In this document: positions 19,484 to 53,403 of the stretch, piece by piece
Numbering within the stretch: the stretch's first letter is position 1
Layout of the letters: each line of letters opens with the position of its first letter
Source of the DNA: Candidatus Melainabacteria bacterium
GTDB taxonomy: Bacteria; Cyanobacteriota; Vampirovibrionia; 2-02-FULL-35-15
NCBI GenBank assembly: GCA_023250195.1
Contig: JAHFBF010000001.1
Span: forward strand, 186,001 to 250,000
Length of the DNA: 64,000 bases
Direction of reading: 5' to 3'
Position numbers and translations under genes: made by a program
The notes under the pieces: generated by a model
The model's input: the letters and a program-made list of their open reading frames with translations, nothing else
Databases searched by the model: none
Told to the model about the DNA's origin: nothing

Positions 19484-19514
19484 GCATTTTCCTAATTGGA
19501 ATACTTGTATTATT

Positions 19515-19543
19515 TTGACAACTTTTAGGAGAAGTCCTAGCTA
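19515..19543 (+). promoter_or_regulatory. Possible promoter of the glycosyltransferase array
   Basis: A consensus TTGACA (19515-19520) with a weak -10 TAGCTA (19538-19543) at 17-bp spacing. The -10 is poor, so this is tentative; it is the best plus-strand candidate before the 36-kb run. Confidence 0.35.
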
Positions 19544-19643
19544 AACCATTTGTCAAAGTTCTAAAAATCCAATGTTTTATATCAAGTATTTAGTCAGACA
19601 ATTCTTATATCACCTTTAGGATATATAAATCTGAAAAGAAGAA

Positions 19644-21632
19644 ATGACTAAGAGAGAAAACAATAAAAAAAAAGTTATTAGCTATTTACTCGGGACAGTA
19701 TTTCTAGTCTTTTTTATATATTCTTTTTCACTATTCAGGCCATGGCAGCCTTTTGATGAAAGACTTTTTTATAATGAAGAGTTTTTACCTATCCCTCAAT
19801 CATTCAGTGAAGTATTTGAAATTATTAATTCATTTGTTTTAAACAGCCACATTATTTCAACAAATACTTTTTTTTCAAATCACCTTTTACTAAGAAGCGA
19901 TCCTGTAGCATGGTCAATATTAACTTTTATTTTTTTCTTCTTTAAGAAGAATGCTCTTCTTTATCATATCTTTCAGCTTTTTATACATCTGACAAACACT
20001 ATTCTCGTATGGCTTACTTTCTATAACCTGACAAAATTAAAAGACAATAAATCTTATTCACTTAACAACTATGACTATTCTTTAATTTCGATTCTTACAG
20101 GACTCTGGAGCCTTCACAGCATAAATACCGAAGCTGTTCTACTGGTTACAAACTGGAATCCACTTTTAATTTACACCTCTTCTTTTGGTTTCATACTCTA
20201 TGAAACATATAAAAGTACTAACAAAAAATTGGGGATTTCATTCGTTGAAATAATGTTGATTCCTATATTATTTTATTTTGCAATGTCACTAACTGAATTG
20301 GGATACACTTTGCCATTGGTCCTTTTTTTAATAACGTTTAGCTTATCTCTTAAAACAAACATTCCAATAAAAGATTCAATAAACATCTCATTAAAAAGAA
20401 CAGCTCCATATTTTATCGGACTTGGATTATTTTTAATATCTCAATTAATAAAACCAGACTCATCTATTACTAATTTATATACAGCACAAAAATCAATCTA
20501 TCCATTTGTAGAGAGGAATTTGTGGCTTACACCTCAAATTTTTATGGGATTTTTAAACCTGTTATTCTTTCCTAAAACTCTATCAACATACCAATCAAAT
20601 TTAATTCATCTATCTGAGAGCCTTTTTAACCCTTACTCAATTTTCTGTACCTTAATATATCTTATTTTTCTAATAATTCCTGTTGTTTTGTTTATATTAT
20701 TTAAAAAATCAAACGATAAGTTTTTATGTCCTTTAGCATATTGCTTTTATTTTGTACTTTTCCCATTTCTTCATATACTTACCCCTTCATACTGTTTAAT
20801 TGCAGATAGATATTGTTATTTCCCTTTATTTTTCCTTTTGCTTTTTATATATCAGTTGTTTCTTAACTTTAACAAAGGAAAGAGCTTAAAACCTCTAATA
20901 TTTTTCTTTCTTAGCTTTTTAATTGTTTTTATCCTAAGAACATATATAAGAATAAATGAATGGAATAATCCTCATACATTCCTCCAATCAGCAATAAATG
21001 CAGATAAAAACCCTCTTTATAAAGCATATAAACTTATAATTTTTGCAAAAAACTTTGCTGACAAAAAAAACGAATCCCTAGAAGAAAGCTTAAGACTGTT
21101 AGATATAAGCAAAAAAACATTAGAAAAAAACATTGGAAATCCTATTAATGAGCCACTTACACTTAAATCATATGGACTCGATTCAAAGTCTTTACTCTTA
21201 AAAACTGTTTTTTTAATTGCAACTATAAAAAATGATTATTATAAAGAAGAGCCTAAAACCACATTGTCGTTTTATGAACCCTATATAAAAGAATATCTTG
21301 ATTTGGCTGGAATAAATCATTTAGCACTATATGCTTCAATACTTGCAAAAGACGGGCAGTTAAATAATGCAAAAAAAGTACTTGAATATGCACTACAGAA
21401 ATTCTCTTACTCTCCAGAAATAATGAAATCTCTTGCTAACTTTTATTTCTATGAAAAGGATTTTAAAAGATTAGGAAAAATATTAAGTCAAGCATATAAA
21501 CTTTTTCCTAATGACAAAGATTTTATTAGAATGTTTTATAGCTATTACAAATCAATAAATGATAGAGAGAATGAAGCCAGATTTGCATATTTAATTAGAC
21601 TAAGAGAACATTTAACAGTTACTATTAAATAG
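19644..21632 (+). CDS. TMTC-like GT-C membrane glycosyltransferase, array member 1
   Basis: 662 residues. TM1 (about 12-31) is followed by the acidic pair Asp38-Glu39 (PWQPFDER), as in the first extracytoplasmic loop of PMT-like GT-C enzymes. Then come LRSDP, LYHIFQLFIHLTNT, HSINTEAVLLVTNW (~158-171), ERNLWLTPQIF, LSTYQSN and ADRYCYFP (~387). These match the order of motifs in eukaryotic TMTC proteins, which are O-mannosyltransferases with TPRs. After about 11 helices comes a soluble domain with the array signature YGLD (510-513) and TPR-like helices. It ends just after the AYLIRLREH motif, so it lacks the extra TPRs of members 2 and 3. An A9 run occupies codons 7-10. The next gene starts at the base after its stop. 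Acceptor and sugar are unknown. Confidence 0.8.
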   Translation: MTKRENNKKKVISYLLGTVFLVFFIYSFSLFRPWQPFDERLFYNEEFLPIPQSFSEVFEIINSFVLNSHIISTNTFFSNHLLLRSDPVAWSILTFIFFFFKKNALLYHIFQLFIHLTNTILVWLTFYNLTKLKDNKSYSLNNYDYSLISILTGLWSLHSINTEAVLLVTNWNPLLIYTSSFGFILYETYKSTNKKLGISFVEIMLIPILFYFAMSLTELGYTLPLVLFLITFSLSLKTNIPIKDSINISLKRTAPYFIGLGLFLISQLIKPDSSITNLYTAQKSIYPFVERNLWLTPQIFMGFLNLLFFPKTLSTYQSNLIHLSESLFNPYSIFCTLIYLIFLIIPVVLFILFKKSNDKFLCPLAYCFYFVLFPFLHILTPSYCLIADRYCYFPLFFLLLFIYQLFLNFNKGKSLKPLIFFFLSFLIVFILRTYIRINEWNNPHTFLQSAINADKNPLYKAYKLIIFAKNFADKKNESLEESLRLLDISKKTLEKNIGNPINEPLTLKSYGLDSKSLLLKTVFLIATIKNDYYKEEPKTTLSFYEPYIKEYLDLAGINHLALYASILAKDGQLNNAKKVLEYALQKFSYSPEIMKSLANFYFYEKDFKRLGKILSQAYKLFPNDKDFIRMFYSYYKSINDRENEARFAYLIRLREHLTVTIK

Positions 21633-26472: not shown

Positions 26473-28550
26473 AATTTGATATAGTTAGACGTCGTTATAT
26501 TTTTTTAATCGTGACATTATTAATTGTCTCATTTATATTTTTACCCACTGTAAACCGTCCATGGCAGATGTTTGATGAAAAAGATATTTATTATAATGAG
26601 AGTCTTTACCCAATGCCTGCAAGCTCCTCTGAAGTTTTTGAAGTCATATCAACCTATGCCTTTAATTTCAATCTAGAATCCCACAATCTACAGTTTTCTA
26701 ATATAGTAAATATCCGCTCTAATCCTATAGGCGCAACATTAAATATTTTAATTTCCTATTTTTTCAAAAAAAATCCTTCTTATTATCATATGCTAGGGGT
26801 CTGCATTCACCTTTTAAATACATTTTTTGTCTGGTTTATATTTTACAAATCCCTAAAAATTCAAACCTGTCTAAATAATTTTGGATATGCCATTGCAAGC
26901 TTATTTACATTAATATGGGCTTTGCACCCGGTTAATATTGAAGCAATCTTAATGGGGAGCAATTGGCTAAGTCTACTTACTTACAGCTTTTGTTTCGGGT
27001 TATTTTTACATACCCTTGTAAAACTATCAAATAAAAGTTTTACGAATTCAATTTCTGAATTAATATCAACTTTTCTGTTATTTGTCATATGCATCTCAAT
27101 AGGTGAATATGGCTATTCCTTACCTTTCATTATATTTTTCACCTCACTTGCTTTTACAAAATCTTTAAAAATCTCACTTACATTATCAATGCCCTATTTA
27201 GCCGGATTATTATGTTACGCCTTGTTTTACTTCTTAAAATATTTTTACTTAGATGCCATTCCTTATCAATCTATTAATTTTTCACTTGAAAGGTTACTGT
27301 GGTTTTCTCCTCAAATTTTTATTCATTTTTTAAAATTGTTCTTTTATCCGAAAAACTTATCCATATATCAGTCAAATCTGGTGCCACTTGCGGGCTCATA
27401 TTTTGAACCTTATGAAATATTTTCATTTTTTGTTTTTATATTATGCCTGATTTTGCCTTTTATATTTATCAGATCAAAAAACAAAAATTCTTTTGTTTTT
27501 CTTTTCTATGGTTTCATTTTTTCGACTTTTCCTTTTTTACACATTTTTACCCCCACATACTGTATCTTTGCTGAGCGATATTGTTACTTTCCTCTTTTTT
27601 TATTTCTATTTTTCGCTATTATTTTTATCCTGTCACTTCAGAATAAAAAAACACTTGTAAGCCTGTTACTTTTAATTCTTCTACCCATATCTATTCGTAC
27701 AATTTTTAGATTAAATGACTGGAAAGATTCATATTCACTTTACTCAGCTGCTGCTAAAACTTATAAAAAGCCCATTTATAAAGGCTTTGGTTACGCAGCT
27801 CTTGGATATTATTTCAATGGAGAGAATAATACAATTGAATCAAAAAAATATTTCCTGCTTAGTATAAAAGCTTTAGAATCTGCAATGAATAAATTAAAGC
27901 TGGAGAAAAAAAGGCAAGCGCCAAAAACTCTTCAAATCTACGGACTAGATACAAATACATTAATTCTAAATGCTGCATTTAGAATAGCATCAATGAGATT
28001 CTATGATTTTCACGACAAAGCTTCAGAAATATTGATATTTTATAAATCTTATATAGAATCAAACATAAACACCGCTGGCAGCTCACAGCTTGATTTATAT
28101 TCAAAGCTATTACTACAAACAAATCAACCACAAAAAGCATTAGAAATACTTAAGTTCGCAAAAGAAAGATATCCATTTAGCACAACAATAATTTTCTCAC
28201 TCAGCAATTTTTATTTAAACCAGAAAGATCTTATAAATGCAGAAAGAATAATTACTGAAGGATTAAAATATTACCCTAATTACATGCGAATTCTTCCAAG
28301 GATAATAAAGCTCTGTGCATTAAAAAATGACCTGATAAATCTTGCAAAATATGAATATCTATTAGGATTGAGAACTCACTCCCAGGGAGCATATCAGAAG
28401 TCTCTTCAAGTCTATCTTTCATTAAATAGATTAAGCGAGGCTAAAAGAATAATAGACAAACTGTTACTCATGGATAAAAATAATCCTGCTACACTTTTAC
28501 TTACAAATAAGTACTACTCACTTGCAAAAGACAGCAATAATGGAAAATAA
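26469..28550 (+). CDS. TMTC-like GT-C membrane glycosyltransferase, array member 4
   Basis: 693 residues, starting with an ATGA overlap on member 3. The acidic pair is Asp36-Glu37 (WQMFDEKD). Motifs are NIRSNP, HPVNIEAILMGSNW, ERLLWFSPQIF, LSIYQSN, AERYCYFP and RLNDWKDS. It is intermediate: it keeps the YQSN of members 1-3 but has HPVNIE and AERY like the later ones. The soluble region has IYGLDTNTLILNAAFRIA and EYLLGLRTHSQGAY followed by one TPR. Confidence 0.8.
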   Translation: MKFDIVRRRYIFLIVTLLIVSFIFLPTVNRPWQMFDEKDIYYNESLYPMPASSSEVFEVISTYAFNFNLESHNLQFSNIVNIRSNPIGATLNILISYFFKKNPSYYHMLGVCIHLLNTFFVWFIFYKSLKIQTCLNNFGYAIASLFTLIWALHPVNIEAILMGSNWLSLLTYSFCFGLFLHTLVKLSNKSFTNSISELISTFLLFVICISIGEYGYSLPFIIFFTSLAFTKSLKISLTLSMPYLAGLLCYALFYFLKYFYLDAIPYQSINFSLERLLWFSPQIFIHFLKLFFYPKNLSIYQSNLVPLAGSYFEPYEIFSFFVFILCLILPFIFIRSKNKNSFVFLFYGFIFSTFPFLHIFTPTYCIFAERYCYFPLFLFLFFAIIFILSLQNKKTLVSLLLLILLPISIRTIFRLNDWKDSYSLYSAAAKTYKKPIYKGFGYAALGYYFNGENNTIESKKYFLLSIKALESAMNKLKLEKKRQAPKTLQIYGLDTNTLILNAAFRIASMRFYDFHDKASEILIFYKSYIESNINTAGSSQLDLYSKLLLQTNQPQKALEILKFAKERYPFSTTIIFSLSNFYLNQKDLINAERIITEGLKYYPNYMRILPRIIKLCALKNDLINLAKYEYLLGLRTHSQGAYQKSLQVYLSLNRLSEAKRIIDKLLLMDKNNPATLLLTNKYYSLAKDSNNGK

Positions 28551-30645
28551 GAATATATTACAAAAGGTAACCATTGCATATCTTGCTTTTACTATATTTC
28601 TGGTTTTTCTTTTTTACTTTCATACTCTTTTTTACGGTATAAAAGCATTTGACGAACTGGCAATATTCAAGGAATCTTACCTGCCTACTGCTTTTTCAAT
28701 CTCTGAGATTTATGAGTTAATTTCTAAGCTTGGCTTACATCAACACTTTGAATCCAGCAATATGCTTTATTCAAATATTTCTTCTCTTAGATGCGATCCG
28801 TTCTGCACATTCTTACATCTTATTACACAGTTTTTATTCCAGAACAATTCTTTTTATTACCACCTATATGGACTAATACTTCATTTGATTAATACTGCTC
28901 TTGTATTTTTAATATTAAATAAAGTATCTTTTCTTTTTTTAAAGGATGAAAATAATAAAACAAGGTCGTTTTTTATTTCAATACTTACTCTCTTCTGGGG
29001 CACACATCCGGTAAATATTGAATCTATACTTTTAGCCACAAATGCAAATATAACTTTAAGTTATGGATTCTCGCTTTTAACTTTTTACCTTTATTTAAAG
29101 TTTTCATCAGAGCAAAAATCATCGAATTTGCTTAAGTCGGTTTATTTATTTATTATTTTTATATTTGCTCTTTTAATTGCTGAATTCCATTTCATGCTTC
29201 CTTTAATACTTCTTTCATATACCATAGGAATCAATCAGCATTTTAAAAACTCTTTTAGAGAAAACTTTTATTCGTCACTGAAATCTATTTCACCAATTCT
29301 TACAGCAGCAATCATATATATAGTCTTGTTTCTGCTATCAAACACAAGAATGAATTTTCAAACTCAATCTTCGCTAAATTTAATCTTTGAAAGAGTTTTC
29401 TGGCTTAGCCCACAAATTTTATTTCATTTTACAAAACTACTGCTACTACCAGTTAAACTATCCATAGATCAGACATTACTTGTAAAAATTGCTGATTCGT
29501 TATTTGATCCTTATGCAATATTTTGCATTACATTTATTCTTATTCTTTTAGTCTTATCGATTATTTCACTCTTAAATGCAAAAAGAAGATTTCCTTTTCT
29601 TTTTATAACACTCTTTCTTCTTTTGCTTTCTTTACTGCCATACTCACAAATCTTAGCTCCTATTTATAATCTTGCCAGTGAGAGATATTTGTATTTTCCT
29701 TCTTTTATATTAATTTTTGGAATAGCACATTATATATTTTTTGTTGTTTCAAATAATTCAAACAATAAGATATTTATTTATTTAACTTCAGTAATGCTTG
29801 TAATTATTTTGATTTCATACTCAATAAGAGGATATATAAGAACTTTAGACTGGAAAGATAGTATAACGTTATACAGCTCAGCAATAAACGCTACTGAAAA
29901 TCCACTTTTTAAAGCTTATAGATACAAAGGGCTTATACCGCAGGAAAAAATACTTGTACCATCCCCTGAAAAGGAAGTTGATTTAAAATTTCAAAAGCTA
30001 GCAATTCAAAACCTCAATGAAGCTATTAGTTACTATAAAAAAAGAGTTAGAACCGTTCAATCATCAATTCCAGAAATAGTTAAAAATTATGGATTGGATC
30101 CAAAAACATTGCTTGCAAAATCAGGATATATACTAGCGCTGTGTAATTTTAACCTGACTAATAATCATAAAACTACACTTAAAATCATGGAGCCCTTTAC
30201 AAAAGATCTTTTAATCCTTGATAGTTCGGCTCTAGCATTTTATGCCTCACTGCTTTACTACAACAATATGACAGATCAAGCTTTATCTGTTTTAAAACTA
30301 GGATATGAGCTAAGACCATATTCAACAAGAATCATTCTTTCACTATGCGATTTAATTCATATACAATATGGTGATTTAAAATCTATTGAAAATTATTGCC
30401 TAAAAGCATTTAAATATTTTCCATATGACTCTTATGCTACTTATGCACTTGCAAAGACTTACGAACTAATGAATAATCATGAAAAATATGCTTACTTTTC
30501 TTATATTTACGGACTAAGAAATCACTCAATAGAAGCTTTAAAAACTGCTTATAATGAATATCTACTTCTTAATAATAAGACTCTTGCAGAAAAAACAATG
30601 AATAAAATTACCTTTGTAGAAAGAGAATTACAAAAAAGAAAATGA
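28540..30645 (+). CDS. TMTC-like GT-C membrane glycosyltransferase, array member 5
   Basis: 701 residues from the ATG at 28540, 11 bp inside member 4 (a TTG at 28522 is the alternative). Pair Asp38-Glu39 (IKAFDEL) follows TM1. SLRCDP, HPVNIESILLATNA, ERVFWLSPQIL, LSIDQTL, ASERYLYFP and TLDWKDS mark it as the sister of member 6. From here on the loop motif changes from YQS to DQT. Soluble signatures: NYGLDPKTLLAKSGYILA and SYIYGLRNHSIEAL; the protein ends about 35 residues after the latter. Confidence 0.8.
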   Translation: MENKNILQKVTIAYLAFTIFLVFLFYFHTLFYGIKAFDELAIFKESYLPTAFSISEIYELISKLGLHQHFESSNMLYSNISSLRCDPFCTFLHLITQFLFQNNSFYYHLYGLILHLINTALVFLILNKVSFLFLKDENNKTRSFFISILTLFWGTHPVNIESILLATNANITLSYGFSLLTFYLYLKFSSEQKSSNLLKSVYLFIIFIFALLIAEFHFMLPLILLSYTIGINQHFKNSFRENFYSSLKSISPILTAAIIYIVLFLLSNTRMNFQTQSSLNLIFERVFWLSPQILFHFTKLLLLPVKLSIDQTLLVKIADSLFDPYAIFCITFILILLVLSIISLLNAKRRFPFLFITLFLLLLSLLPYSQILAPIYNLASERYLYFPSFILIFGIAHYIFFVVSNNSNNKIFIYLTSVMLVIILISYSIRGYIRTLDWKDSITLYSSAINATENPLFKAYRYKGLIPQEKILVPSPEKEVDLKFQKLAIQNLNEAISYYKKRVRTVQSSIPEIVKNYGLDPKTLLAKSGYILALCNFNLTNNHKTTLKIMEPFTKDLLILDSSALAFYASLLYYNNMTDQALSVLKLGYELRPYSTRIILSLCDLIHIQYGDLKSIENYCLKAFKYFPYDSYATYALAKTYELMNNHEKYAYFSYIYGLRNHSIEALKTAYNEYLLLNNKTLAEKTMNKITFVERELQKRK

Positions 30646-32699: not shown

Positions 32700-32701
32700 C
32701 A

Positions 32702-34813: not shown

Positions 34814-36927
34814 TGAATTTTAAAAAGGATTGTATTTTTTTCTCGCTAACAATAACTATAGTATTACTGTTTTTCCTACATACTTTAACTTATCCTTGGA
34901 AAAACTTTGACGACAATATAATTTTTCAAGAAACAGTCTTACCAATACCAAAATCATTTTCTGAAATATTTGAGTATATAAAGCTGTTTGGGTTAAACCA
35001 TCATTTTGAAGCAAGCAATCCTTTTTACTCAAGTATTGCAAATCTTAGAAGTGAGCCATTCAATTTTTTTATCATGTTAATTGTTTTATGGCTTTTTCAG
35101 AAAAATGCCTTCCTTTATCATCTTCTGTCACTTTCATTTCATATCCTTAATACCTGTCTTCTTTTTCTTATACTTAATAATATCTACTCTAATTACATAA
35201 AATTAAATTCTAAGTTTTTACAGAAAATCAGGGTCACTTTAATTTCTATACTTACTTTATTTTGGGCACTTAATCCCTTAAATGTAGAATCCATTCTACT
35301 TTCCACTAACTGGCCTGCTACCTTAAGCTATTTCTTTTGTTTGCTGGTTTTTTATCTAAGTACAAATCAGGATTCTACAAATGAAAGCTTTTTAAAGCCT
35401 TTTGGAATATTTGTTTTGTTTCTAACCTCATTATTCATCTGTGAACACACGATTACTTTCCCGGCAATTATATTTTTCTATGTTTTTATTCAAAGTAATT
35501 CACTAAAAGCAGCTATAAAAAAGACTTTACCATTACTTTTTGCCACTATGCCATTTATCACTTATTTTTTACTCTCACAAACTAAAAGTAATTTTATATC
35601 AACAAGCACAAACGATTTACAATTATTTCTTGAGAGAATTTTCTGGTTATCACCACAAATATTTTTCCATTTTATAAAACTAATCTTGCTCCCCCTGCAT
35701 CTATCAATTGATCAAACAGCCTTTGTAAGCCTTTCTAAAAGTCTGCTTGAACCTTATGCAATGTTCTGCAGCATTTTTATGTACAGCTTACTGCTAATTA
35801 CACTTATCTCACTTATAAATATAAAAAGGTCGTTTTCTCATTTGTTCGTTATTCTGTTTATGCCTTTTTTTATTGCCCTGCTGCCTTTTCTACACATAAT
35901 TTCACCGATTTATAACCTTGCAAGTGAAAGATATTTATATTTCTGTCTATTATTTTTAATTCTTGGCATCTCGAATATTATTTTCTTTTTTCTGGCAAAA
36001 TATCCTAAAGAAAATCCATATAAATATTTTTTAGTTTTTCTTGTTTTAATTTTTACTGTTACTTATTCATTTAGAGCATATGCAAGAACTCTTGACTGGA
36101 AAGACAGTAATACACTGCTTAACTCAACAATTAATATTTCACCAAACAATCTGCTCAAAGGACTAAGACAAGAGTCTTTAGCATCCTCAATACAATTACT
36201 TTCCGGAACATCAGATGAATCGTTATCCTATACAAAAAAAGCTATTACCTCCTTAAAAAAAGCCTTCATAGAATTTAAAGACCAAAGTGCTCTTTATGAA
36301 CAAATAATTCCAAAAATAATAAAGTTTTATGGACTTGATCCACAAACATTATTAGCAAAATCCGTCTTTCTACTTGCTTTTTGCAGTTATGATTTAAATA
36401 ATGACCCGGAAATGGTTTACAAAATCATTTACCCTTATATTAATTATTCAAATGTTACAGATACACAAATTTTAAAATTTTATTATAAGATCTTATTTCT
36501 AAGCAAAAGAATTGATGACGCAGAAAGGTTGCTTTTACAAAATTTAAAGCAAAATAAAATAAATCCAGCCTTATATATAGCTTTATCGGACTTATCAGAA
36601 TACAAATACAAAGATTTAAAACAAACCGAGAATTATCTACTGCTTTCACATAAATATTTTCCCTATGAACAAGCTACATTATTTGGATTACAAAGGCTTT
36701 ATAGAAGTTTAAACAATCCTGAAAAGTTTGCATTTTATTCATATTTATATGGACTTAGAATACATGATCCGATTTCTCTAAAAGATGCTGCATATATTTA
36801 CATAAGATTAGGCAATAAAGATACATCAAAAATAATTATCAATAAACTTCTTAAGTATTATCCTATAGATGAGCAAACATTAAGAATTAAAATCTTATAT
36901 GAGCAAAACTTTGGCGGAGTAAATTAG
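34813..36927 (+). CDS. TMTC-like GT-C membrane glycosyltransferase, array member 8 (DD variant)
   Basis: 704 residues. Its ATG overlaps the stop of member 7 by one base. Asp33-Asp34 (NFDDNI), NLRSEP, NPLNVESILLSTNW, ERIFWLSPQIF, LSIDQTAF and ASERYLYF are present. The tail has FYGLDPQTLLAKSVFLLA and SYLYGLRIHDPISL. It mirrors member 7 in its DD pair and N-for-H change but restores TNW. Confidence 0.8.
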   Translation: MNFKKDCIFFSLTITIVLLFFLHTLTYPWKNFDDNIIFQETVLPIPKSFSEIFEYIKLFGLNHHFEASNPFYSSIANLRSEPFNFFIMLIVLWLFQKNAFLYHLLSLSFHILNTCLLFLILNNIYSNYIKLNSKFLQKIRVTLISILTLFWALNPLNVESILLSTNWPATLSYFFCLLVFYLSTNQDSTNESFLKPFGIFVLFLTSLFICEHTITFPAIIFFYVFIQSNSLKAAIKKTLPLLFATMPFITYFLLSQTKSNFISTSTNDLQLFLERIFWLSPQIFFHFIKLILLPLHLSIDQTAFVSLSKSLLEPYAMFCSIFMYSLLLITLISLINIKRSFSHLFVILFMPFFIALLPFLHIISPIYNLASERYLYFCLLFLILGISNIIFFFLAKYPKENPYKYFLVFLVLIFTVTYSFRAYARTLDWKDSNTLLNSTINISPNNLLKGLRQESLASSIQLLSGTSDESLSYTKKAITSLKKAFIEFKDQSALYEQIIPKIIKFYGLDPQTLLAKSVFLLAFCSYDLNNDPEMVYKIIYPYINYSNVTDTQILKFYYKILFLSKRIDDAERLLLQNLKQNKINPALYIALSDLSEYKYKDLKQTENYLLLSHKYFPYEQATLFGLQRLYRSLNNPEKFAFYSYLYGLRIHDPISLKDAAYIYIRLGNKDTSKIIINKLLKYYPIDEQTLRIKILYEQNFGGVN

Positions 36928-38966
36928 TGAAATTGAAAAAAGATTATATATTTTGTTTTATTACAGGAATGACAGTATTCTTGTTTTTTCTTCATACTTT
37001 AGGTTATCCATGGAGACATTTTGATGAACAGATAATTTACAACGAAACCATATTGCCTATACCAAGATCATTTTCTGCAATATTTGAATACTTAACCCTA
37101 TTTGGTCTGAATAATTATTTCGAGGCAAGTAATCCATTTTATTCCACTATTTCAAACCTAAGAAGCGATCCATTTAATTTTTTTCTTATATTATTTGTTT
37201 CATATTTTTTCCAGAAAAGTGCCTTTTTCTATCACTTGCTGTCACTTATCCTACATATCTTTAATACCTGTCTTTTATTTCTAATACTTAATACTGTTTT
37301 CCCCAGTAATTCAAATAAAACCAGATTAGCTCTAATTTCTTTGCTCACACTCTTTTGGGCACTAAATCCTTTAAATATAGAATCTATCTTATTCGCCACA
37401 AACTGGCCGGCTCTTTTAACTTATTTCATTTGCTTCTTGATTTTTTACCTAAGTATTAAAAAAGAGGCTTCAACAGGAGGATTATTACAATCAACAATAA
37501 TATTCGTTTTGTTTCTAGTTGCTTTATTTACATGTGAACATACTATTACTTTACCGGTTGTTTTATTTTGTTACTTGTTTGGAAATAAAACTTCTTTAAA
37601 AACATGCATAAGAAAGACTCTTCCTTTATTTTTTGCCACTATGCCATTTATTATTTATTTTTTATTTTCCCCAACTAAAAATAACTTAATATCAATTCAT
37701 CCGAATAATCTTCAATTATTCTGTGAACGTATTTTTTGGCTCTCACCACAAATATTTTTCCATTTTATAAAGTTAATTTTATTCCCTCTACATTTAACCA
37801 TTGATCAAAGTGCTCTGGTTAAGCTCTCCAATACTTTGTTTGAGCCTTATTCAATATTTTGTTTTACGTTTATGTTTGGCTTAATAAGCTTCTTAATAAT
37901 TGCAGCTGTAAATTTAAAACAAAAGCTTTATTTCTGTTTCTTTATTTTATTTATCCCATTTTTCCTTTCACTTGCCCCCTTCCTGCATATAATTTCACCT
38001 TTATATAATCTTGTCAGCGAAAGATATTTTTATTTTCCATTATTCTTTTTAACCATTGGACTTTCACACATCTTGTTTGTTCTATCAAACAATGCCTCGA
38101 TTAAAAAAATAGCCGGGATTACTACTCTAACTTTTTTAATAGTAACTTCCTTTTCCTGTAAAGCTTATTTCAGGACTATGGACTGGAAAGACAGCGCTTC
38201 ACTTTTTATGTCAGCATTAAAAGAGTCAAAAAGTGATCTTATTAAAGGGCTTAGAATGGAAATGTTGGGAGGGGTTTTATACTCCTATTATGGTGATTCT
38301 AAATCAAAAGAAACCGGGAAAAGATTTATAGAAGAAGGATTGTACATTTTAGAAAACTCATTAAGAAACCTGGAATTAGAAAAAATAAAATATCAGAACC
38401 ATTTACCACGGATTATAAAATTTTATGGTTTAGATCCTAGAACAATTCAAGCAAAAACAGCTTATCTACTTGCTTTTACAAAGCTTGGGCTGGGAACAAG
38501 CCATGAAAAAGCATATGAGCTGATGAAACCACATATGGAAGATTTTTCTATCATTGACACACAAATTTTAGACTTATACACAGGACTTTTATTTTCATTA
38601 CAAAAAATAGATGACGCTGAAACACTGCTAAAACATGCATTAGAAAAGAAATTAAGTCCTATAATACTACTCCCTCTTTCTGAAATATATAAAAATAAAT
38701 ATAAAGACCTGTCAACTGCTGAAAATCTACTTAAAAAATCCTTCAAATACTTCCCATATGACTCATCAACGCTTCTAAGTCTGAAGAATTTTTATTTACA
38801 GATTCGAAGACCATATGAATATGCATTTTATTCATATTTATATGGTTTAAGGACTCATTCAAAGGAAAGTTTAGAAGAGTCTCTAAAAGTCTATCAAAGC
38901 TTATATAATCAAAAAATGATAGATAGGATAAACACACAGTTACAATATGTCGAAGAAAAAAAATAA
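36927..38966 (+). CDS. TMTC-like GT-C membrane glycosyltransferase, array member 9
   Basis: 679 residues, starting with GTG that overlaps the previous stop by one base. It belongs to the 7-9 subgroup (NPLNIESILFATNW, Asn for His) but has the usual Asp33-Glu34 pair (RHFDEQ). Other marks: NLRSDP, ERIFWLSPQIF, LTIDQSAL, VSERYFYFP, TMDWKDS, FYGLDPRTIQAKTAYLLA and SYLYGLRTHSKESL. It ends about 30 residues after the last motif. Confidence 0.8.
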   Translation: MKLKKDYIFCFITGMTVFLFFLHTLGYPWRHFDEQIIYNETILPIPRSFSAIFEYLTLFGLNNYFEASNPFYSTISNLRSDPFNFFLILFVSYFFQKSAFFYHLLSLILHIFNTCLLFLILNTVFPSNSNKTRLALISLLTLFWALNPLNIESILFATNWPALLTYFICFLIFYLSIKKEASTGGLLQSTIIFVLFLVALFTCEHTITLPVVLFCYLFGNKTSLKTCIRKTLPLFFATMPFIIYFLFSPTKNNLISIHPNNLQLFCERIFWLSPQIFFHFIKLILFPLHLTIDQSALVKLSNTLFEPYSIFCFTFMFGLISFLIIAAVNLKQKLYFCFFILFIPFFLSLAPFLHIISPLYNLVSERYFYFPLFFLTIGLSHILFVLSNNASIKKIAGITTLTFLIVTSFSCKAYFRTMDWKDSASLFMSALKESKSDLIKGLRMEMLGGVLYSYYGDSKSKETGKRFIEEGLYILENSLRNLELEKIKYQNHLPRIIKFYGLDPRTIQAKTAYLLAFTKLGLGTSHEKAYELMKPHMEDFSIIDTQILDLYTGLLFSLQKIDDAETLLKHALEKKLSPIILLPLSEIYKNKYKDLSTAENLLKKSFKYFPYDSSTLLSLKNFYLQIRRPYEYAFYSYLYGLRTHSKESLEESLKVYQSLYNQKMIDRINTQLQYVEEKK

Positions 38967-45796: not shown

Positions 45797-45817
45797 AAAT
45801 ACTACAATTAATGAAAG

Positions 45818-48109
45818 ATGTTTTGCATTATAAAATTTATTTTTTTCTTACTCATCTCATCTGCTTTTGGATTTATATCTCTAAGTCGCTTATTAAAAAT
45901 CAGATCATTGATTTTATTAATTCCATTATCAATTTCTTTTGGAATTGCTGCTTATGTTTTCACCTGTCATCTATTATCATTTTTAATTGGCCCCCAAAAA
46001 GCAGCATGGATTACATTAATTATATTTGTGTTGAAATCCATATATATATTCATAACCAATAAAAAAGATTCAACCACAGTTAAAAAGGAAATAACTACAG
46101 GTCAATTTATTACTGTATGTATCATTGCGATATTTATTTGTTTTCTTACTTTAATGGCAGTTAGCAAATTTGGTACTTTTGACAGAGAATCCCATATACC
46201 AATAGCTATGACTATGTTTCATAATAATGTTTACCCACCAAGAGATTGCTTTAGACCTGACTATGTACTTCTCTATCACTATGGCGGAGATCTTTTAGCA
46301 GGAGCAGTACAATATATCACTAATTTAGACATATCAACCTCATATGAATTAATAGCCACCATTTTAAGCGGTACAACATTTCTAAGCTTCTTTGCTTTAT
46401 GCTGGCTTTTAACTTCAAGTTTCAAACTTTCTTTACTTGGGGGCTTCTGTGCATATTTTGGCGGGGGGCTTCTGTGGCTTGATTCAATAATCAGATATTT
46501 AACAAAGGCTCTTCCTGACGGAGCAATAGGCTGGTCTTTCCTACAAACTTTTATAAATCTTGGAATCCACGGAGGAATTAACAATGCCCCTTCAGTCCTT
46601 ACATTTATTTCAACATTTAATCTTGGAAATCCTCTTTTAATCTGCTCATTAATCTTGTTTTGGAAAATGACTAACGGTAAAAACTTTAAATCAAGCATTT
46701 ATTACATTTTCTTTTTAACCGTAACTCTATTTACTTTATTTCTAACTGCTGACTGGCTTTACGTAATATTCTGGGCTGCTGTTATCCCTTTTATTTTCTT
46801 CTTATGGAAAGATAATAAAAAACAATTTATTATTTCTACATTTGTAATTCTTTTTATTTCAATACTTTTAAATAGATCTATTGGAAATGCTTTATTTCTC
46901 CAAAATACTATTCAACATTTAGGCAGAACAAATATTTTTGATATTGGAATTAAAGAACAGCTCTTTTCAGTAGTAAGCTGGGGAAGGCTTAGTTCTCACG
47001 TAATGAATTATCAGACCATTTCATGTTTTTCATGGGATTTTATATGTGAACTTGGTTTAAGTTTATTTTTTTTTCCTATTGCTTTAATTTATTTGATAAA
47101 GACTAAAAATCGGCTAGCTTACTTACTTTTCTTTTTATCTCTAACAACAATGCCTATACCAATACTAATTGATTTTAAATTAAATCCTGTTGAGCTTGTA
47201 AGACTTTTTGCTTTTGGAAATACAATGCTTATTTTACTTATAACCTGCGGAACAGCATTTTTATATAAATCGTTCATTAAAAACAACCTGCTGATTATTC
47301 CTTATGTTATTGTCTTTTGCTTATCACCTGTTTCACAACTATTTTTTGGCGCAGTGTTTTCGCCTCATGTTTACTCTAACAAAATCCTTGTTCAAACATT
47401 GTGCAATGATCTTAAAAGAATTAAATCTTTAGGTGAATTAATTTCATATCTCAAAGGCTATAGCGAGTACATACATCTTGCTAAGAATAATATAATAAAT
47501 GCTTACAAAAGTGAATCTGAATTTTTCAAATCACAAAGTAAGCCAAAAGATGTTGCATTAAGCATTATTCATGAAATCCCTTCATACTCGGGTGTTTACT
47601 CACTAATACCAGCACAGAGACTTATCTACTGGGATCAGCTTTATTCATCGCATAACACTCTATATGAAACTACATTTTCTACACTGGATCCATTCCTACT
47701 AAAAGAATTAAACATAAAATGGCTACTAATAAATACAGAGCTAAAAAGCAAGTTGCCAAAAGAAACACAGGACAGATTAAATAATCCAGGGGTCTTTAAT
47801 CTGTCCTTTATTAGTCCAAATAAGCTTGAGATTTATCATGTTAATGACTTGGGAAATATTCTTAAGGACTCTCCACGTAAAACAGCATGGATGCTTATAA
47901 ATAGAGATGGTTATCCAGTTAGTTCAGCAGAAAATAAAATCGTATTATTCCCAAGTTTAAAAGACACATTAACAGAATTAAAATCCTTACAAAACACAAA
48001 CCCTATTTTAAAAAAGCAGTTAATAACTGCTCAAGCAATTATTATTCAAAGCCTGGAAAAGCAAATAGTTGATAGCAAAGTCAATGTTAAGGTGGAAAAA
48101 AGGTTTTAA
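45818..48109 (+). CDS. Large multi-membrane protein, possible GT-C glycosyltransferase of a different family
   Basis: 763 residues with about 12 hydrophobic segments to ~residue 540, then a soluble ~220-residue C-terminal part without TPRs. After the third or fourth helix it has FDRESHIPIAMTMFHNNVYPPRD and LLYHYGGDLLAG, an extracytoplasmic loop with acidic and His residues reminiscent of GT-C enzymes, but none of the array motifs. I do not recognise the family. The start at 45818 is 21 bp after member 12; an ATG at 45811 in another frame gives only a short overlapping frame. The G-rich run near 46458-46472 encodes GGGLLW. Confidence 0.6.
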   Translation: MFCIIKFIFFLLISSAFGFISLSRLLKIRSLILLIPLSISFGIAAYVFTCHLLSFLIGPQKAAWITLIIFVLKSIYIFITNKKDSTTVKKEITTGQFITVCIIAIFICFLTLMAVSKFGTFDRESHIPIAMTMFHNNVYPPRDCFRPDYVLLYHYGGDLLAGAVQYITNLDISTSYELIATILSGTTFLSFFALCWLLTSSFKLSLLGGFCAYFGGGLLWLDSIIRYLTKALPDGAIGWSFLQTFINLGIHGGINNAPSVLTFISTFNLGNPLLICSLILFWKMTNGKNFKSSIYYIFFLTVTLFTLFLTADWLYVIFWAAVIPFIFFLWKDNKKQFIISTFVILFISILLNRSIGNALFLQNTIQHLGRTNIFDIGIKEQLFSVVSWGRLSSHVMNYQTISCFSWDFICELGLSLFFFPIALIYLIKTKNRLAYLLFFLSLTTMPIPILIDFKLNPVELVRLFAFGNTMLILLITCGTAFLYKSFIKNNLLIIPYVIVFCLSPVSQLFFGAVFSPHVYSNKILVQTLCNDLKRIKSLGELISYLKGYSEYIHLAKNNIINAYKSESEFFKSQSKPKDVALSIIHEIPSYSGVYSLIPAQRLIYWDQLYSSHNTLYETTFSTLDPFLLKELNIKWLLINTELKSKLPKETQDRLNNPGVFNLSFISPNKLEIYHVNDLGNILKDSPRKTAWMLINRDGYPVSSAENKIVLFPSLKDTLTELKSLQNTNPILKKQLITAQAIIIQSLEKQIVDSKVNVKVEKRF

Positions 48110-48149
48110 GCCTAGAGACGGGGCATCGGCAGACCTCTAGAGAGTACGA

Positions 48150-48155
48150 TATAAT
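48150..48155 (+). promoter_or_regulatory. Possible internal promoter -10 box
   Basis: A consensus TATAAT 22 bp before the radical SAM gene, within the only sizeable gap in this part of the run (48110-48176). No convincing -35 was seen. Confidence 0.35.
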
Positions 48156-48176
48156 TTATTAACTGTTAAATACATA

Positions 48177-49268
48177 ATGATTACATACCTAAACAATTTA
48201 AAAGAAAAAGTAGAGCGCCAGGTTGGCTCTGATTTTTTACAGAGAGTAATTCAGCATCAGGGAGCCCAGGGATTAGTAAACATGGTAAATGTATCTTTAA
48301 CCGCTATAAAGAAAGAACATCCTGCAAATGTAAACTATTTACCACCATGCCTTTTTGTAGAAGTTACAAACAGGTGTAATCTGAGTTGCCCTACCTGCCA
48401 GCTTGGTACAGCCGAAGCATATAATGGCTACAGTAAAAGCGATATTACCTTTGAACAGTTTAAAAAAGTAATTGATCAAGTACCGTCACTGGTTTATGTC
48501 ACACTTCAAGGAGTAGGTGAACCTCTTTTAAACAAAGACATAATGAAAATGATCAGGTATTGTTCAGATAAGGGGATATCTACCTATATTAATACAAACG
48601 GTACAATACTTACAGAAACCAAATGTAGAGAACTTATTGATGCTGGATTACAAAATCTGTCTATTTCGATTAATAGTTTTGACGAAAAGATTTTTTCAGA
48701 AACAAGAAGCGGTGCATCTATAGTCAAAATTACAGAAAATGTAAAAAGGTTTATTAATCTAAAAAATGAGTTGAACAAAAAACGCCCTATTGTTTCTTTC
48801 AGAGCAATTCTAATGAAAGAGACAGAACCTACTATGGAAGATTTAATTTTTAAATCTGATGAACTTGGTATAGATGTTCTTTATATACAATTATTTATAA
48901 GCATAATAGCCGACAAAAGCCTAACAGATTCATCTCTAAATAAAGAGGAAATAAACGCATTTGTTGAAAAGCTCAGGCACTGGAAAAAGCAGGTAAAGAA
49001 ACTGCAAATAGTTACAGAAAGTTTTGGAGACTCTTCAAATAATCTCGGGCAATGCAAATTGCCATGGTTTAGTCCAAACATTACTGCAGAAGGATATGTT
49101 ACTCCCTGCTGTACAATAAGCAATCCAAGCCTGCTGAACATGGGGAATGTCTTTGAAACCCCATTTGAAAAAATCTGGAACTCTGAAAAGTTTGTGGATT
49201 TTAGAGCTGGCTTTTATAAAAAACAGCCTAAAGTCTGCATCGGCTGCCAAAATTACAAACGTAATTAA
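48177..49268 (+). CDS. Radical SAM / SPASM-domain enzyme
   Basis: 363 residues. The radical SAM cluster ligands are Cys67, Cys71 and Cys74 in TNRCNLSCPTCQLG. The TIM-barrel segment TLQGVGEPLLNKD and the SPASM-type C-terminal cysteines (QCKLPWFSP, TPCCTI, VCIGCQNYK) indicate one or more auxiliary Fe-S clusters. Such proteins modify peptides or sugars; several occur in polysaccharide and lipid-linked sugar clusters. The substrate is unknown. It ends flush with the next gene. Confidence 0.85.
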   Translation: MITYLNNLKEKVERQVGSDFLQRVIQHQGAQGLVNMVNVSLTAIKKEHPANVNYLPPCLFVEVTNRCNLSCPTCQLGTAEAYNGYSKSDITFEQFKKVIDQVPSLVYVTLQGVGEPLLNKDIMKMIRYCSDKGISTYINTNGTILTETKCRELIDAGLQNLSISINSFDEKIFSETRSGASIVKITENVKRFINLKNELNKKRPIVSFRAILMKETEPTMEDLIFKSDELGIDVLYIQLFISIIADKSLTDSSLNKEEINAFVEKLRHWKKQVKKLQIVTESFGDSSNNLGQCKLPWFSPNITAEGYVTPCCTISNPSLLNMGNVFETPFEKIWNSEKFVDFRAGFYKKQPKVCIGCQNYKRN

Positions 49269-50240
49269 ATGATACTAATGAAAAAATATTCTTTTTTTCT
49301 AAAGTTAGTATTGCTTTTTATAATATTTTATTGGATTTTCAAATCAGTAAATATTAAGGACACTCTCAATGTCCTGGAAAAAACGAACTTATCTTATTTT
49401 TTCTTTGCCTTTCTGCTGGGCAATTTATCCAATATATTTCTAACAATAAAATGGGGAAGATTGGCAGGTCCATTAAAAATAAAAAGTAATTTCTTTGAGC
49501 TTTTAAAATTAAACTACATTTCAATTTTTTACAGCAGTTTTTTACCAGGACAATCATCTGGTGAATTAATTAAAGGATTAAGGCTAACAAAAAAAGAAAG
49601 CTCAATCCAAAAAGTCTGGGTACCAATATTTATAGATAAGATTACAAATTTACTTATGGTTTTCATTATTGGATTTGTTGCTGTTTTGTCAGATAAAACA
49701 TTCAGAACCAATTCTACTCTGATATTTACCATTTCATTACTCACAGTATCATTCTCAGTTATTACACTGGTACTATTTAGTGAAAATACAAAACATTTTA
49801 TCGATTTTCTAAGAGATAAATTAATTCAATGCCTGAAGTTCGTAAAATTAAAGACAGACTTATTGGAAAATTTTTCATTAAACTATTTAGAAAATTACAA
49901 GAAGCATAACTTATTAATGTTTGAAACTTTAATATGGAGTGCATTAATTAAACTTCCTCATGTTTTTGCCTTTTATTTTCTGGCATTAAGCTTAAATATC
50001 GATTTAAACTTTATACAATGTGCATGGCTATTTTCAATTATTTCACTGATTACTCTTATCCCAATAAGTTTTTCAGGACTTGGGGTAAGAGAAAGTACTA
50101 TGATAGTTATACTGTCACAGTTTGGAATTGAAAGATTCAATTCTCTAAGCTTATCAATATTAATTTTTCTTACCGGGATACTCGTAGCAATAATTGGCGG
50201 GATACTCGAATTATTTTCAGGTAATAAAAATCAGAAATGA
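49269..50240 (+). CDS. AglD/UPF0104-type membrane protein (lysylphosphatidylglycerol synthase TM region)
   Basis: 323 residues with about eight membrane helices. Family segments include YSSFLPGQSSGELIKGLRL (~75-95) and SGLGVRESTMIVIL near residue 275. Relatives include archaeal AglD, involved in S-layer glycan assembly, and the membrane half of MprF; flippase-like roles have been proposed. It abuts the radical SAM gene and overlaps array member 13 by 4 bp. An ATG at 49278 is an alternative start. Confidence 0.8.
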   Translation: MILMKKYSFFLKLVLLFIIFYWIFKSVNIKDTLNVLEKTNLSYFFFAFLLGNLSNIFLTIKWGRLAGPLKIKSNFFELLKLNYISIFYSSFLPGQSSGELIKGLRLTKKESSIQKVWVPIFIDKITNLLMVFIIGFVAVLSDKTFRTNSTLIFTISLLTVSFSVITLVLFSENTKHFIDFLRDKLIQCLKFVKLKTDLLENFSLNYLENYKKHNLLMFETLIWSALIKLPHVFAFYFLALSLNIDLNFIQCAWLFSIISLITLIPISFSGLGVRESTMIVILSQFGIERFNSLSLSILIFLTGILVAIIGGILELFSGNKNQK

Positions 50241-52504
50241 ATAATATTACAAACAAAGGAATAAGCAAACTAGATTTTGAATGGAAAAAGTATGATTTTG
50301 TATTTATTCCAATAATAATAACTATTTTAATTTATTTTATTTCTTTATTTTATGGATTTAGAAATTTTGATGAGGACGGCTTAATAAAGGATTTTTATGC
50401 AAAAAAAACATTTGGCGAATATGTAGGCAGGTTTTTACTTTTAAATGCAGGCGGGGTTTCAGCAGCTCATGGATTTACATTCTCCGGGATAAAGAACACT
50501 CATGTCTGTATTCTTGGTTTGCCTTCAATTTACCTGATTAATTTTCTCTTTCAGGTAAAACCATTCCTATATCACCTATGGGGATTGTTTTTACATTGTC
50601 TTGCATTATTTTTTTTCATTTGGTTTTGTTTTAACTTCACTCAAAACAAACAAATCGCCTTATTTTCAGGATTAGTCTGGTCCATACACCCGACAAATGT
50701 CGAGTCTGTAATCTGGGCTACCAACTGGCTTCAGCCACTTGGTGTTGCTTTTTATTTTTTTACATTGAATAAAATCATATATTTAATTCGCAGGGGTTTG
50801 ATTAATCAAACCCCTCCAACAATAATTTTCATAATGTACATTACAGTAATTCAAATCTTATTTACAGAACATACTATTACTATCCCATTTGCAATATTAT
50901 TTACTATCTTTTACCTGCTAAAAAGTTCAAATAAAGAACCTGACGCTTTTAAACAAGCCCTTAAAATAAGCCTTCCATCATTTGCTGTTATTGGAGGGTA
51001 TTGGATATTACGGACAACTCTCATTGCAAAGACTGTTAAAAACTCTTTAGAAAACAATTTTATTGAATCGTTAGAAAGAATATTATTCTTTACACCACAG
51101 ATATTTTTGCACCAGTTAAAATTAATTTTTTTCCCTTTAAAACTTACAATCGATCAAATAGACTTATTAACTTTAGATAAGACTTTTTTAGGATCATATA
51201 ATCTGCTCTGCATTTTCATATTAATTTCATTTCTACTTCTGATTTTATTTTACAGAAACAAGTTGCCGTTTTTATCTTTTGGTCTTCTGCTTTATTTAGT
51301 TACAATTTCATTATTTATCCAAATAATTCCTCTTTATTCTCTTTCTGGCGAAAGATATAACTATCTTGGATCTGCATTTATTATATTTGGAACAGTTTCA
51401 ACATTTGCAAATTTCACCAAAAGAAAATTTTTAATGCCAATCTTAATGGCTCTATCTATCTTACTTAGTGCTAGAACCATTATCAGAATTAATGACTGGA
51501 AGGACAGCTCTTCACTTTTTTCAAGCACAATTAAAACCAGTAAATCTCTCTTTAAAAAGGGAATCTGGACATATAATTCAGCTATATGCCAGGAGGATGA
51601 AAATAAAAAATCGGAATTATTAAAAGAATCAACAAACATTTTAAAGAAATTTGTTCATTATTCCAGTGCACCTATAACTGAACCTAGAATTTTTAAGACT
51701 TATGAATTGGACAGAAAATCAATTCTTGCAAAAGCTTTTATTAGAATTGCTACAAATTATGAAATTTTAAAAAATAAAAATCTCCAGTTAAAGTATCTTC
51801 TAAAAGCACTAAAAATCTCAAGACCAGACAGTCAGATTAGAAATTTGATTTATAAAAATCTTGGAACACTTTATTTTCAGATGAATGATTTTAAGAAAGC
51901 TATTTCTTATTATGCACAAAGTAATCTTATTTATCCAAATCCAACAATCAATTTTGCAATTGCTGCATGTTACTTAAAACTAAAAGATTTTACAAATTAC
52001 GAAAAATATCTTAAAGAAGCTGTTTCTAAAATTTCTTCAGATGGAGAAGCATTTAAAACTTATGGACAATTACTGGAATTATCAAAGGGTGATTATCAAA
52101 GTGCTCTTAAATACTATAAAATTGCAACCTTATTACAAAAGAGCCCAGAGCCATACATACTGCTTGCCACCACTTATTTAAAACTAAGAGACATTGATAA
52201 TGCATTTAAAACAATAAAAAATGGACTCTATGGATTCTCAGAAGACCCAACACTTTTGTATTTGCACAGCACTATACTAATAAATAAAGGAGATACAGAG
52301 TCTGGATTAAAAGGGTTAATTAAAGTTACAAACGATATAAATGCTCCAATTGATATAAGAATTGAATCCTGCAATATACTTGTAAACATATTTTCAAAAC
52401 GAAATAATTTACAGGAAGCAAAAAAATACAATGATTTAGCTTTAAATATTGACCCTAAAAATCAGGAGTCCTTAAAGAATAGGGCAATCTTAATGATAAG
52501 ATAG
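50237..52504 (+). CDS. TMTC-like GT-C membrane glycosyltransferase, divergent member 13
   Basis: 755 residues. It shares the framework of the array: Asp45-Glu46 (RNFDED), HPTNVESVIWATNW, ERILFFTPQIF, LTIDQIDL, SGERYNYLG and INDWKDS. It lacks RSDP and has TYELDRKSILAKAF in place of the YGLD motif, and the Y-YGLR-H signature is absent. Its C-terminal half holds more regular TPRs (NLIYKNLGTLYFQMNDFKKA, DYQSALKYYKIATLL, NLQEAKKYNDLALNIDP), about six in all. It probably represents the ancestral or outgroup type. A perfect 24-bp palindrome lies in frame at 50792-50815. Confidence 0.8.
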   Translation: MNNITNKGISKLDFEWKKYDFVFIPIIITILIYFISLFYGFRNFDEDGLIKDFYAKKTFGEYVGRFLLLNAGGVSAAHGFTFSGIKNTHVCILGLPSIYLINFLFQVKPFLYHLWGLFLHCLALFFFIWFCFNFTQNKQIALFSGLVWSIHPTNVESVIWATNWLQPLGVAFYFFTLNKIIYLIRRGLINQTPPTIIFIMYITVIQILFTEHTITIPFAILFTIFYLLKSSNKEPDAFKQALKISLPSFAVIGGYWILRTTLIAKTVKNSLENNFIESLERILFFTPQIFLHQLKLIFFPLKLTIDQIDLLTLDKTFLGSYNLLCIFILISFLLLILFYRNKLPFLSFGLLLYLVTISLFIQIIPLYSLSGERYNYLGSAFIIFGTVSTFANFTKRKFLMPILMALSILLSARTIIRINDWKDSSSLFSSTIKTSKSLFKKGIWTYNSAICQEDENKKSELLKESTNILKKFVHYSSAPITEPRIFKTYELDRKSILAKAFIRIATNYEILKNKNLQLKYLLKALKISRPDSQIRNLIYKNLGTLYFQMNDFKKAISYYAQSNLIYPNPTINFAIAACYLKLKDFTNYEKYLKEAVSKISSDGEAFKTYGQLLELSKGDYQSALKYYKIATLLQKSPEPYILLATTYLKLRDIDNAFKTIKNGLYGFSEDPTLLYLHSTILINKGDTESGLKGLIKVTNDINAPIDIRIESCNILVNIFSKRNNLQEAKKYNDLALNIDPKNQESLKNRAILMIR
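50792..50815. repeat. Perfect 24-bp palindrome inside array member 13
   Basis: AGGGGTTTGATT and its exact reverse complement meet without a spacer. It is read in frame as RGLINQTP in a short loop between two membrane helices. Perfect palindromes of this length are not expected by chance in a coding sequence. Confidence 0.85.
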
Positions 52505-52509
52505 ATTTC

Positions 52510-53334
52510 ATGCCCCTTGTAAAAGAAAAACCTAAACAGACAATAGATAACCTAAGAGAAAATGCGGTTAGGCAAAGTAGCAAGATTAATCTTTCTTTAT
52601 TTAATTATTGTTTTCTGACTTATTTTTATTTAATAAGAGAAATTAAAAAAAATGCTTCTTATGCAAAAGGAACTCTTCTTGATATAGGATGCGGCTCATC
52701 TCCATTGGAAAATTATTTCTCCACCTATGTAGAAAAATATTTAAAGCATGAACATCCTGAAGCAGCTAAAGAAAATATTAAATACGACTATCTCTCTGAA
52801 CTTCCTGAAATAAATGCCCCAAATAATTCAATAGACACAATTGTTTCATTTGCAGTACTTGAACATGTTTCTAAACCATTTGAAGCTTTAGCTGAATGTA
52901 AAAGAATTTTAAAAGAAAATGGAATACTTATAATCTATGTCCCACAATATTGGCATTTACATGAAGAACCACACGATTATTTTCGTTTCACAAAGTATAT
53001 TTTAAAAGAAAAAATGAGTGAACTGAATTTGGAAATAATTCACCTAAAAGAAATCGGCGGATCATTTGCTGTAGTAGGTCAGGCATTTTGCAATGCAATT
53101 ATTTTAATGTTTGATTTAACTCATGTAAAAAACATATTTAACTTCTTATCAGGAAAGAAATCAGACGGTTTGGGAAAAAGCATAATTTATACTATTTACA
53201 AATCACCTTTAATATTATTAGCAATTATCCTAATACCAATTATCAATATACTTTTTTTAATTTTGGATCAATTACTTGGAAGCCCAAGAGATACTATTGG
53301 GTATTTCGTGGTTGCAAAGAAAATTGACAATTGA
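52510..53334 (+). CDS. Class I SAM-dependent methyltransferase with C-terminal membrane helix
   Basis: 274 residues. Motif I is TLLDIGCGSSPLE (55-67), and IDTIVSFAVLEHVSKPFEAL with LIIYVPQYWHLHEEPHDYFRFT follow the Methyltransf_11 pattern. A hydrophobic helix (LILLAIILIPIINILFLIL, ~231-250) near the C-terminus would fix it to the membrane. It lies 5 bp after member 13, so a sugar, lipid or acceptor in the glycan pathway is a likely substrate. A seven-base repeat array supplies its stop codon. Confidence 0.8.
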   Translation: MPLVKEKPKQTIDNLRENAVRQSSKINLSLFNYCFLTYFYLIREIKKNASYAKGTLLDIGCGSSPLENYFSTYVEKYLKHEHPEAAKENIKYDYLSELPEINAPNNSIDTIVSFAVLEHVSKPFEALAECKRILKENGILIIYVPQYWHLHEEPHDYFRFTKYILKEKMSELNLEIIHLKEIGGSFAVVGQAFCNAIILMFDLTHVKNIFNFLSGKKSDGLGKSIIYTIYKSPLILLAIILIPIINILFLILDQLLGSPRDTIGYFVVAKKIDN

Positions 53335-53350: not shown

Positions 53351-53403
53351 GATTTTGGGGACTATCTTTGCATTAACATTTTAAGTGTTGTATCATTTTC
53401 ATT

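Follow-up and report, generated by a model that had tools for sequence, protein, structure and literature searches.

A 64,000-nucleotide stretch of a Candidatus Melainabacteria genome (G000:C6:186001-250000, hereafter the window; genome of 2.21 Mb in 7 contigs, 98.9% complete; GC content 31%) encodes thirteen full-length paralogues of a TMTC-like GT-C glycosyltransferase with C-terminal tetratricopeptide repeats (TPRs). End-to-end alignment placed twelve of them side by side and the thirteenth after three intervening genes (A01 to A13; Table 1), and all thirteen open reading frames called by the first-pass annotation of this DNA were recovered in place. Profile and single-sequence searches found exactly these 13 paralogues in the whole genome and none outside the window. 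A02 to A13 are 24-51% identical to A01, the first gene of the array, and E-values between paralogues reach down to 1e-197, so that chance likeness is out of the question. We propose, with a probability of about 0.5, that the array belongs to a cell-surface glycosylation operon in which each enzyme subtype would choose its acceptor through its TPR domain, the likeliest acceptors being secreted Ser/Thr-rich proteins; protein O-glycosylation is, at about even odds, the best single explanation.

A full-length AlphaFold model built on the window's own 13-row alignment (predicted local distance difference test, pLDDT, 85.9) showed 11 membrane helices (TMs) followed by TPR helices to the end of the protein. 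A fold search with this model was unusable for the GT-C part, being swamped by TPR/solenoid proteins, and the GT-C part was therefore folded alone (pLDDT 77.6). Its only credible Foldseek matches were oligosaccharyltransferase STT3, PglB, DPY19 and AftA (best E 8e-3 at probability 1.00; first six matches at probability 0.97-1.00 and E 8e-3 to 0.4), the remaining list consisting of transporters and receptors of low probability. The predicted structure thus matches solved GT-C enzymes, in agreement with the fold first claimed from motifs. In the helix map, D38-E39 follow TM1, HPxNxE follows TM3, E218 follows TM5, the ER, PQI and LSxxQ motifs occupy the long TM7-TM8 loop, and ERYxY lies between TM9 and TM10. 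The D38-E39 loop is preceded by a Lys/Arg-rich N-terminus and TM1; with that N-terminus inside, every conserved motif is predicted to lie outside, on the periplasmic side. The acidic pair would therefore be periplasmic, not cytoplasmic, and the C-terminal TPRs, present both as TPR matches and in the helix map, are likewise predicted to be periplasmic, as first proposed. Inner loops were the most variable segments, with an entropy of 2.9-3.2 bits versus 1.1-1.8 for the motif loops.

Alignment identified residues invariant in 13/13 members, comprising D38, H108, H115, W155, E163 and E218 in the N-terminal part and R291, PQI 297-299, L313, Q317, Y383, R389, Y390, Y392, R436 and W440 further on. 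The motifs listed by the first-pass annotation were all present, but their exact spellings were not, some members carrying looser variants: (H/N)(P/S)xNxE reads HSASSE in gene 3, HPVMxE in genes 10 and 11 and HPAHVE in gene 12; ERYxYxP reads DRYCYFP in genes 1-3, DRYLYTP in gene 12 and ERYNYLG in gene 13; DW(K/N)D appears in some members as EWNN, EWND, DWRN or DWQD; and LSxxQ becomes LTxxQ in two. Across the array proteins of the whole family, D38 was kept in 67/67 and E/D39 in 66/67, H115, E163, E218 and Q317 in 67/67 each, and R389, Y390, Y392 and W440 in 68/68 each. Because these residues are kept across 68 array proteins, no subtype appears to have lost its active site; judged from the alignment, the site is intact in every subtype and the enzymes are probably active. 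Subtype-specific residues were found at 11 positions that formed no cluster and were uninformative.

We scanned 289 genomes of the class for strong homologues, defined by a best E below 1e-100. These were confined to one family (f1), where 10/11 genomes gave 5-13 matches each; the survey of array size suggested by the first-pass annotation thus revealed a family-wide array. Absence from G002, a genome of the same genus, is most readily explained by a break in the assembly, since its contig C32 starts inside the surface-protein gene. Eight genomes share one order of the eight subtypes, beginning with I-VII, some arrays being cut by contig ends. Subtype VII is followed, again in conserved order, by a DUF2298-like gene, a radical SAM gene, a flippase-like gene, subtype VIII, a methyltransferase, RmlA and RmlB. 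Lineage-specific tandem copies occur in subtypes I, III, IV and VI, and G005 carries subtypes III-VI only. By this comparison the eight subtypes are ancient and conserved in order. Relatives identified by sequence are Candidatus Melainabacteria groundwater assemblies, one of them named Candidatus Caenarcanales; the host lineage comprises non-photosynthetic relatives of cyanobacteria. No array of this kind is described in the open-access literature that was searched. A second, more distant TPR-GT-C clade occurs in several genomes of the family, other than the window's own (L058:5093-12722, L098:5105-7057, L099:4266-6296).

The two halves of the enzymes have different histories, as trees of the GT-C half and the TPR half disagree. 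The TPR-half tree recovers all eight subtypes; the GT-C-half tree groups A09 with its neighbours A07/A08 and G010_5 with G010_4, and G005 and G010 show similar grouping for subtypes IV/V. Identity profiles change over at about residue 446: A09 and A07 share 66-75% identity across residues 87-230 and 21% across 446-500, where the identity of A09 to the orthologues of other genera is 32-51%. A paralogue of another subtype in the same genome beat every orthologue for 8/68 GT-C halves versus 0/68 TPR halves. Approximately unbiased (AU) tests gave p = 0.03 for subtype V as one clade in the GT-C half and, in the TPR half, p = 0.0006 for A07-A09 as one clade and p = 2e-5 for G010_4/5, values that are optimistic because the groups were named after the trees were seen; subtype VII as one clade in the GT-C half was not rejected (p = 0.11). 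The simplest reading is that gene conversion has been tolerated in the catalytic half, which would imply shared chemistry, together with selection for distinct TPR halves, which would imply recognition of an acceptor or partner. The mosaic pattern thus points to the TPR halves as the specificity part and to a shared donor chemistry.

Donor supply is relevant to the same question. The genome has 13 GT2 genes, about four to six of which resemble polyprenyl-phosphate-sugar synthases by rough criteria (length, C-terminal TM pair or DxDLQ-type motif), so that putative donor synthases are fewer than array enzymes. Two of them have PMT_2-type genes as neighbours and form GT2/PMT_2 pairs at G000:C6:256-268 kb, downstream of the window. 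The first-pass annotation had allowed that members might differ in sugar; the shortage of synthases and the exchange of catalytic halves disfavour this.

Searches of Pfam, NCBIfam and PDB sequences with the array proteins returned TPR matches only and no glycosyltransferase model, and Pfam recognised none in single TMTC-like relatives either. Of the profiles first suggested as checks, TMTC DUF1736 (PF08409) had no match in the genome or in five scanned members, with the caveat that the genome-wide search gave no match in any control genome either, while PMT (PF02366) and PMT_2 (PF13231) left the array unmatched, the genome's eight PMT_2 matches being other genes. Animal TMTC1-4 have as characteristic residues an acidic pair in outer loop 1 (EL1) and an Arg preceding TM10 (R404 in TMTC1), and full-length prokaryotic TMTC homologues have already been reported (PMC7801869). 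The array has the acidic pair, and R389, directly before TM10 (392-409), is the counterpart of TMTC1 R404. Since both features are present and DUF1736 is unmatched, we use the label TMTC-like: architecture, acidic pair, Arg and TPRs agree with the earlier assignment, but membership of TMTC proper is not supported.

The array shares with animal TMTC1-4 (CAZy GT105) 11 TMs, the acidic pair, the Arg, outer TPRs after TM11 and the existence of several non-redundant paralogues, but differs in lacking a DUF1736 match, in having its own TM7-TM8 motif (ERxxWxxPQI...LSxxQ) and in its 13 copies in one operon. Single bacterial TMTC-like genes of the sister family f2 match its profile along the entire GT-C part (428 columns; hhalign probability 99.2, E 2e-19; reciprocal) and resemble it in their acidic pair, HPLHAEAVAWIxGR and RxAYLPS; unlike the array, they are single or scattered and have a C-terminus that Pfam does not recognise as TPR. 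The sister family f4 has 1-5 copies with the first loop GYDDxxLIVxN. It is these relatives that tie the array to TMTC-like enzymes. STT3/PglB oligosaccharyltransferases, DPY19 and AftA share the GT-C fold and are the best solved-structure matches, but show no sequence-level match, transfer en bloc or to other acceptors, and have different C-terminal domains. PMT/POMT (GT39) and mycobacterial PMT resemble the array in their first-loop acidic DE pair, 11-TM model and periplasmic or luminal action, whereas the array has no PMT or PMT_2 Pfam match and, instead of a MIR domain, TPRs.

The twelve adjacent array genes and their seven followers (45818-55475) are co-directional, with overlaps or gaps of ≤69 bp, and the string 19644-55475 is therefore probably one operon or a few. 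Its last genes include two that we take, from their sequence, to be RmlA-like and RmlB-like. Divergently from the array are encoded secreted proteins rich in Ser and Thr. The largest, of 1364 amino acids (aa), has a signal peptide read from its sequence and evenly spread Ser+Thr, amounting to 24.7-26.0% among seven orthologues; the conserved, Ser/Thr-rich neighbour of the first-pass annotation was thus confirmed (about 25-26% in all seven). Secreted, very large, Ser/Thr-rich and conserved, it combines the properties looked for in an acceptor resembling a surface-layer protein. The 469-aa protein has a linker almost purely of Ser and Thr, and the features of both proteins fit O-glycosylation acceptors. 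Ig-like, IPT-like and dockerin-like stretches in the surface proteins were considered by eye and are not claimed. Most genomes of the family have a half-length paralogue of the 1364-aa protein elsewhere (here G000:C6:362227-364218), and G006 has a second full-length one, L111 (G006:C14:45427-49356).

In the proposed system, the thirteen enzymes would be inner-membrane proteins whose active site and TPR domain both lie on the periplasmic side. Every enzyme would accept a monosaccharide from a polyprenyl-phosphate carrier, perhaps flipped by the operon's LPG_synthase_TM-type protein, and pass this sugar on to an acceptor hydroxyl that its own TPR domain presents. Proteins of the LPG_synthase_TM family have been proposed as glycosylation flippases, and in archaea they occur next to PMT/STT3-type enzymes (PMC5898192). 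The eight subtypes would differ mainly in acceptor recognition, not in chemistry; the divergently encoded Ser/Thr-rich proteins, above all the 1364-aa protein, would be the likeliest acceptors, and different subtypes may glycosylate different sites or domains, as TMTC1-4 do on cadherin domains. A more specific form of this idea, which we advance tentatively and think rather unlikely, is a site-specific O-glycosylation code: eight subtypes would use one common donor and have catalytic halves that can be exchanged, while the TPRs of each would read a different site or domain of one giant, Ser/Thr-rich surface-layer protein. Tandem duplication and divergence of the TPRs would then create new specificities, and gene conversion would keep the engine uniform. 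In animals, TMTC-type enzymes are studied as four paralogues that act on cadherins. With its eight subtypes, natural swaps of catalytic halves and constant TPRs, the array lends itself directly to testing whether acceptor choice is set by the TPRs, and it points to a so far unstudied system of surface glycosylation in one family of these non-photosynthetic cyanobacterial relatives.

Several observations weigh against protein O-glycosylation with these acceptors. The Foldseek E-values are modest (8e-3 and worse), the 8/68 homogenised halves amount to about four independent events, and Pfam and PDB searches found no known domain in the Ser/Thr-rich neighbours. The 1364-aa protein is present in 11/11 genomes of the family and in 0/106 others, so the co-occurrence anticipated by the first-pass annotation was found, but within one clade only. 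Moreover, synteny extends family-wide over all 50 kb of the block that runs from mnmG through gatA, cysK and cysE to rmlB, which makes the adjacency of array and surface protein weak evidence. Finally, relatives in f4 have a four-gene array without the 1364-aa protein, and this array encloses an SLBB/Poly_export (Wza-like) gene (L092:3590-4270, L093:1793-2476).

The f4 arrangement, with its Wza-like export gene and missing surface protein, makes a serious rival of the view that the array decorates or builds a polysaccharide or glycolipid of the cell surface (O-antigen, capsule, lipid A), with the surface protein a mere neighbour; we consider it possible, if doubtful. Many bacterial GT-C enzymes using polyprenyl-phosphate donors act on glycolipids, the block includes WbpM-like, DegT-like, RmlA/RmlB-like, YfhO-like and DUF2298-like genes, and the GT2/PMT_2 pairs are located 6-18 kb past its downstream end of the window. 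However, no Wzx/Wzy/Wzz or export gene was recognised inside the f1 operon, eight subtypes with distinct TPRs suit protein recognition better, and Ser/Thr-rich secreted proteins are found family-wide. A single operon with conserved gene order and eight subtypes might also suggest a sequential assembly line, each subtype adding a successive sugar of one long glycan on a single protein or lipid acceptor. This we judge improbable: donor synthases are few, G005 holds only four of the eight subtypes, lineage-specific duplicates recur, and the catalytic halves of neighbours are interchangeable, which would be surprising for enzymes of differing linkage and donor.

That the array reflects assembly noise, or a recent and redundant amplification serving gene dosage, is very improbable, for although tandem duplicates and gene conversion do occur, the paralogues are divergent, the subtypes keep their order across genera, active sites appear intact in practically all of the 68 proteins and several relatives were assembled independently. 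Least probable of all are membrane TPR proteins devoted to transport or scaffolding, to which the TPR-only Pfam and NCBIfam results would conform but not the GT-C fold match, nor the acidic pair and the Arg preceding TM10, both conserved as they are in TMTC/STT3 (PMC7801869).

Table 1. Genes and intergenic region of the locus (window coordinates) and helix map of the array protein model (residues).
Feature	Position	Strand	Remarks
310-aa secreted protein	12480..13412	-	15% Ser+Thr
469-aa secreted protein with Ser/Thr-rich linker	13552..14961	-	25% Ser+Thr
1364-aa secreted Ser/Thr-rich surface protein, candidate acceptor	15122..19216	-	26% Ser+Thr; 10 invariant Cys; divergent from array
Divergent intergenic region, 427 bp	19217..19643	.	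surface-protein ribosome-binding site conserved; invariant TTTTAGGAGAnnTCCTA inverted repeat
A01, TMTC-like GT-C + TPR, subtype I, 662 aa	19644..21632	+	
A02, subtype I, 819 aa	21633..24092	+	
A03, subtype I, 800 aa	24070..26472	+	start taken as ATG at 24070; GT-C half nearest A01, TPR half nearest another genome's subtype I
A04, subtype II, 693 aa	26469..28550	+	
A05, subtype III	28540..30645	+	start taken as ATG at 28540
A06, subtype III, 685 aa	30642..32699	+	
A07, subtype IV, 705 aa	32696..34813	+	
A08, subtype IV, 704 aa	34813..36927	+	
A09, subtype V, 679 aa, mosaic	36927..38966	+	GT-C half homogenised with A07/A08; TPR half is the subtype V orthologue
A10, subtype VI, 812 aa	38947..41385	+	
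A11, subtype VI, 714 aa	41355..43499	+	
A12, subtype VII, 765 aa	43499..45796	+	
Polytopic protein, possibly another GT-C type enzyme	45818..48109	+	weak DUF2298 and Chlor_Arch_YYY matches, both below cut-off
Radical SAM/SPASM protein	48177..49268	+	always between DUF2298-like and flippase-like genes
LPG_synthase_TM/flippase-like (COG0392/UPF0104), candidate lipid-linked-sugar flippase	49269..50240	+	
A13, subtype VIII, 755 aa	50237..52504	+	deepest-branching array member
Methyltransferase, RmlA-like nucleotidyltransferase, RmlB dTDP-glucose 4,6-dehydratase-like	52510..55475	+	conserved array followers
Helix map, TM1 to TM6	3-27, 104-131, 142-156, 168-192, 200-216, 223-237		by reading the model
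Helix map, TM7 to TM11	242-269, 330-352, 361-376, 392-409, 416-440		by reading the model

The intergenic region between surface protein and array (19217-19643) contains, in four genera, the invariant TTTTAGGAGAnnTCCTA inverted repeat and conserved TTGAACTTCAA and ATAAAGTTCC blocks. No tRNA and no Rfam family was found within the 64-kb window. Beside the array, tandem YfhO-like genes with a weak C-terminal YfhO match only lie at 56179-63992, alongside an SGNH/GDSL hydrolase. Three of the YfhO-like genes contain, in frame, a heptamer element of the form (AGATCAG)n ... (TCTCACC)n (57525-57602, 60329-60427, 63042-63119; minus strand). The pattern matches 58 times genome-wide versus 0 for a reversed control, and it resembles the short heptamer repeats that occur in tandem in cyanobacteria.

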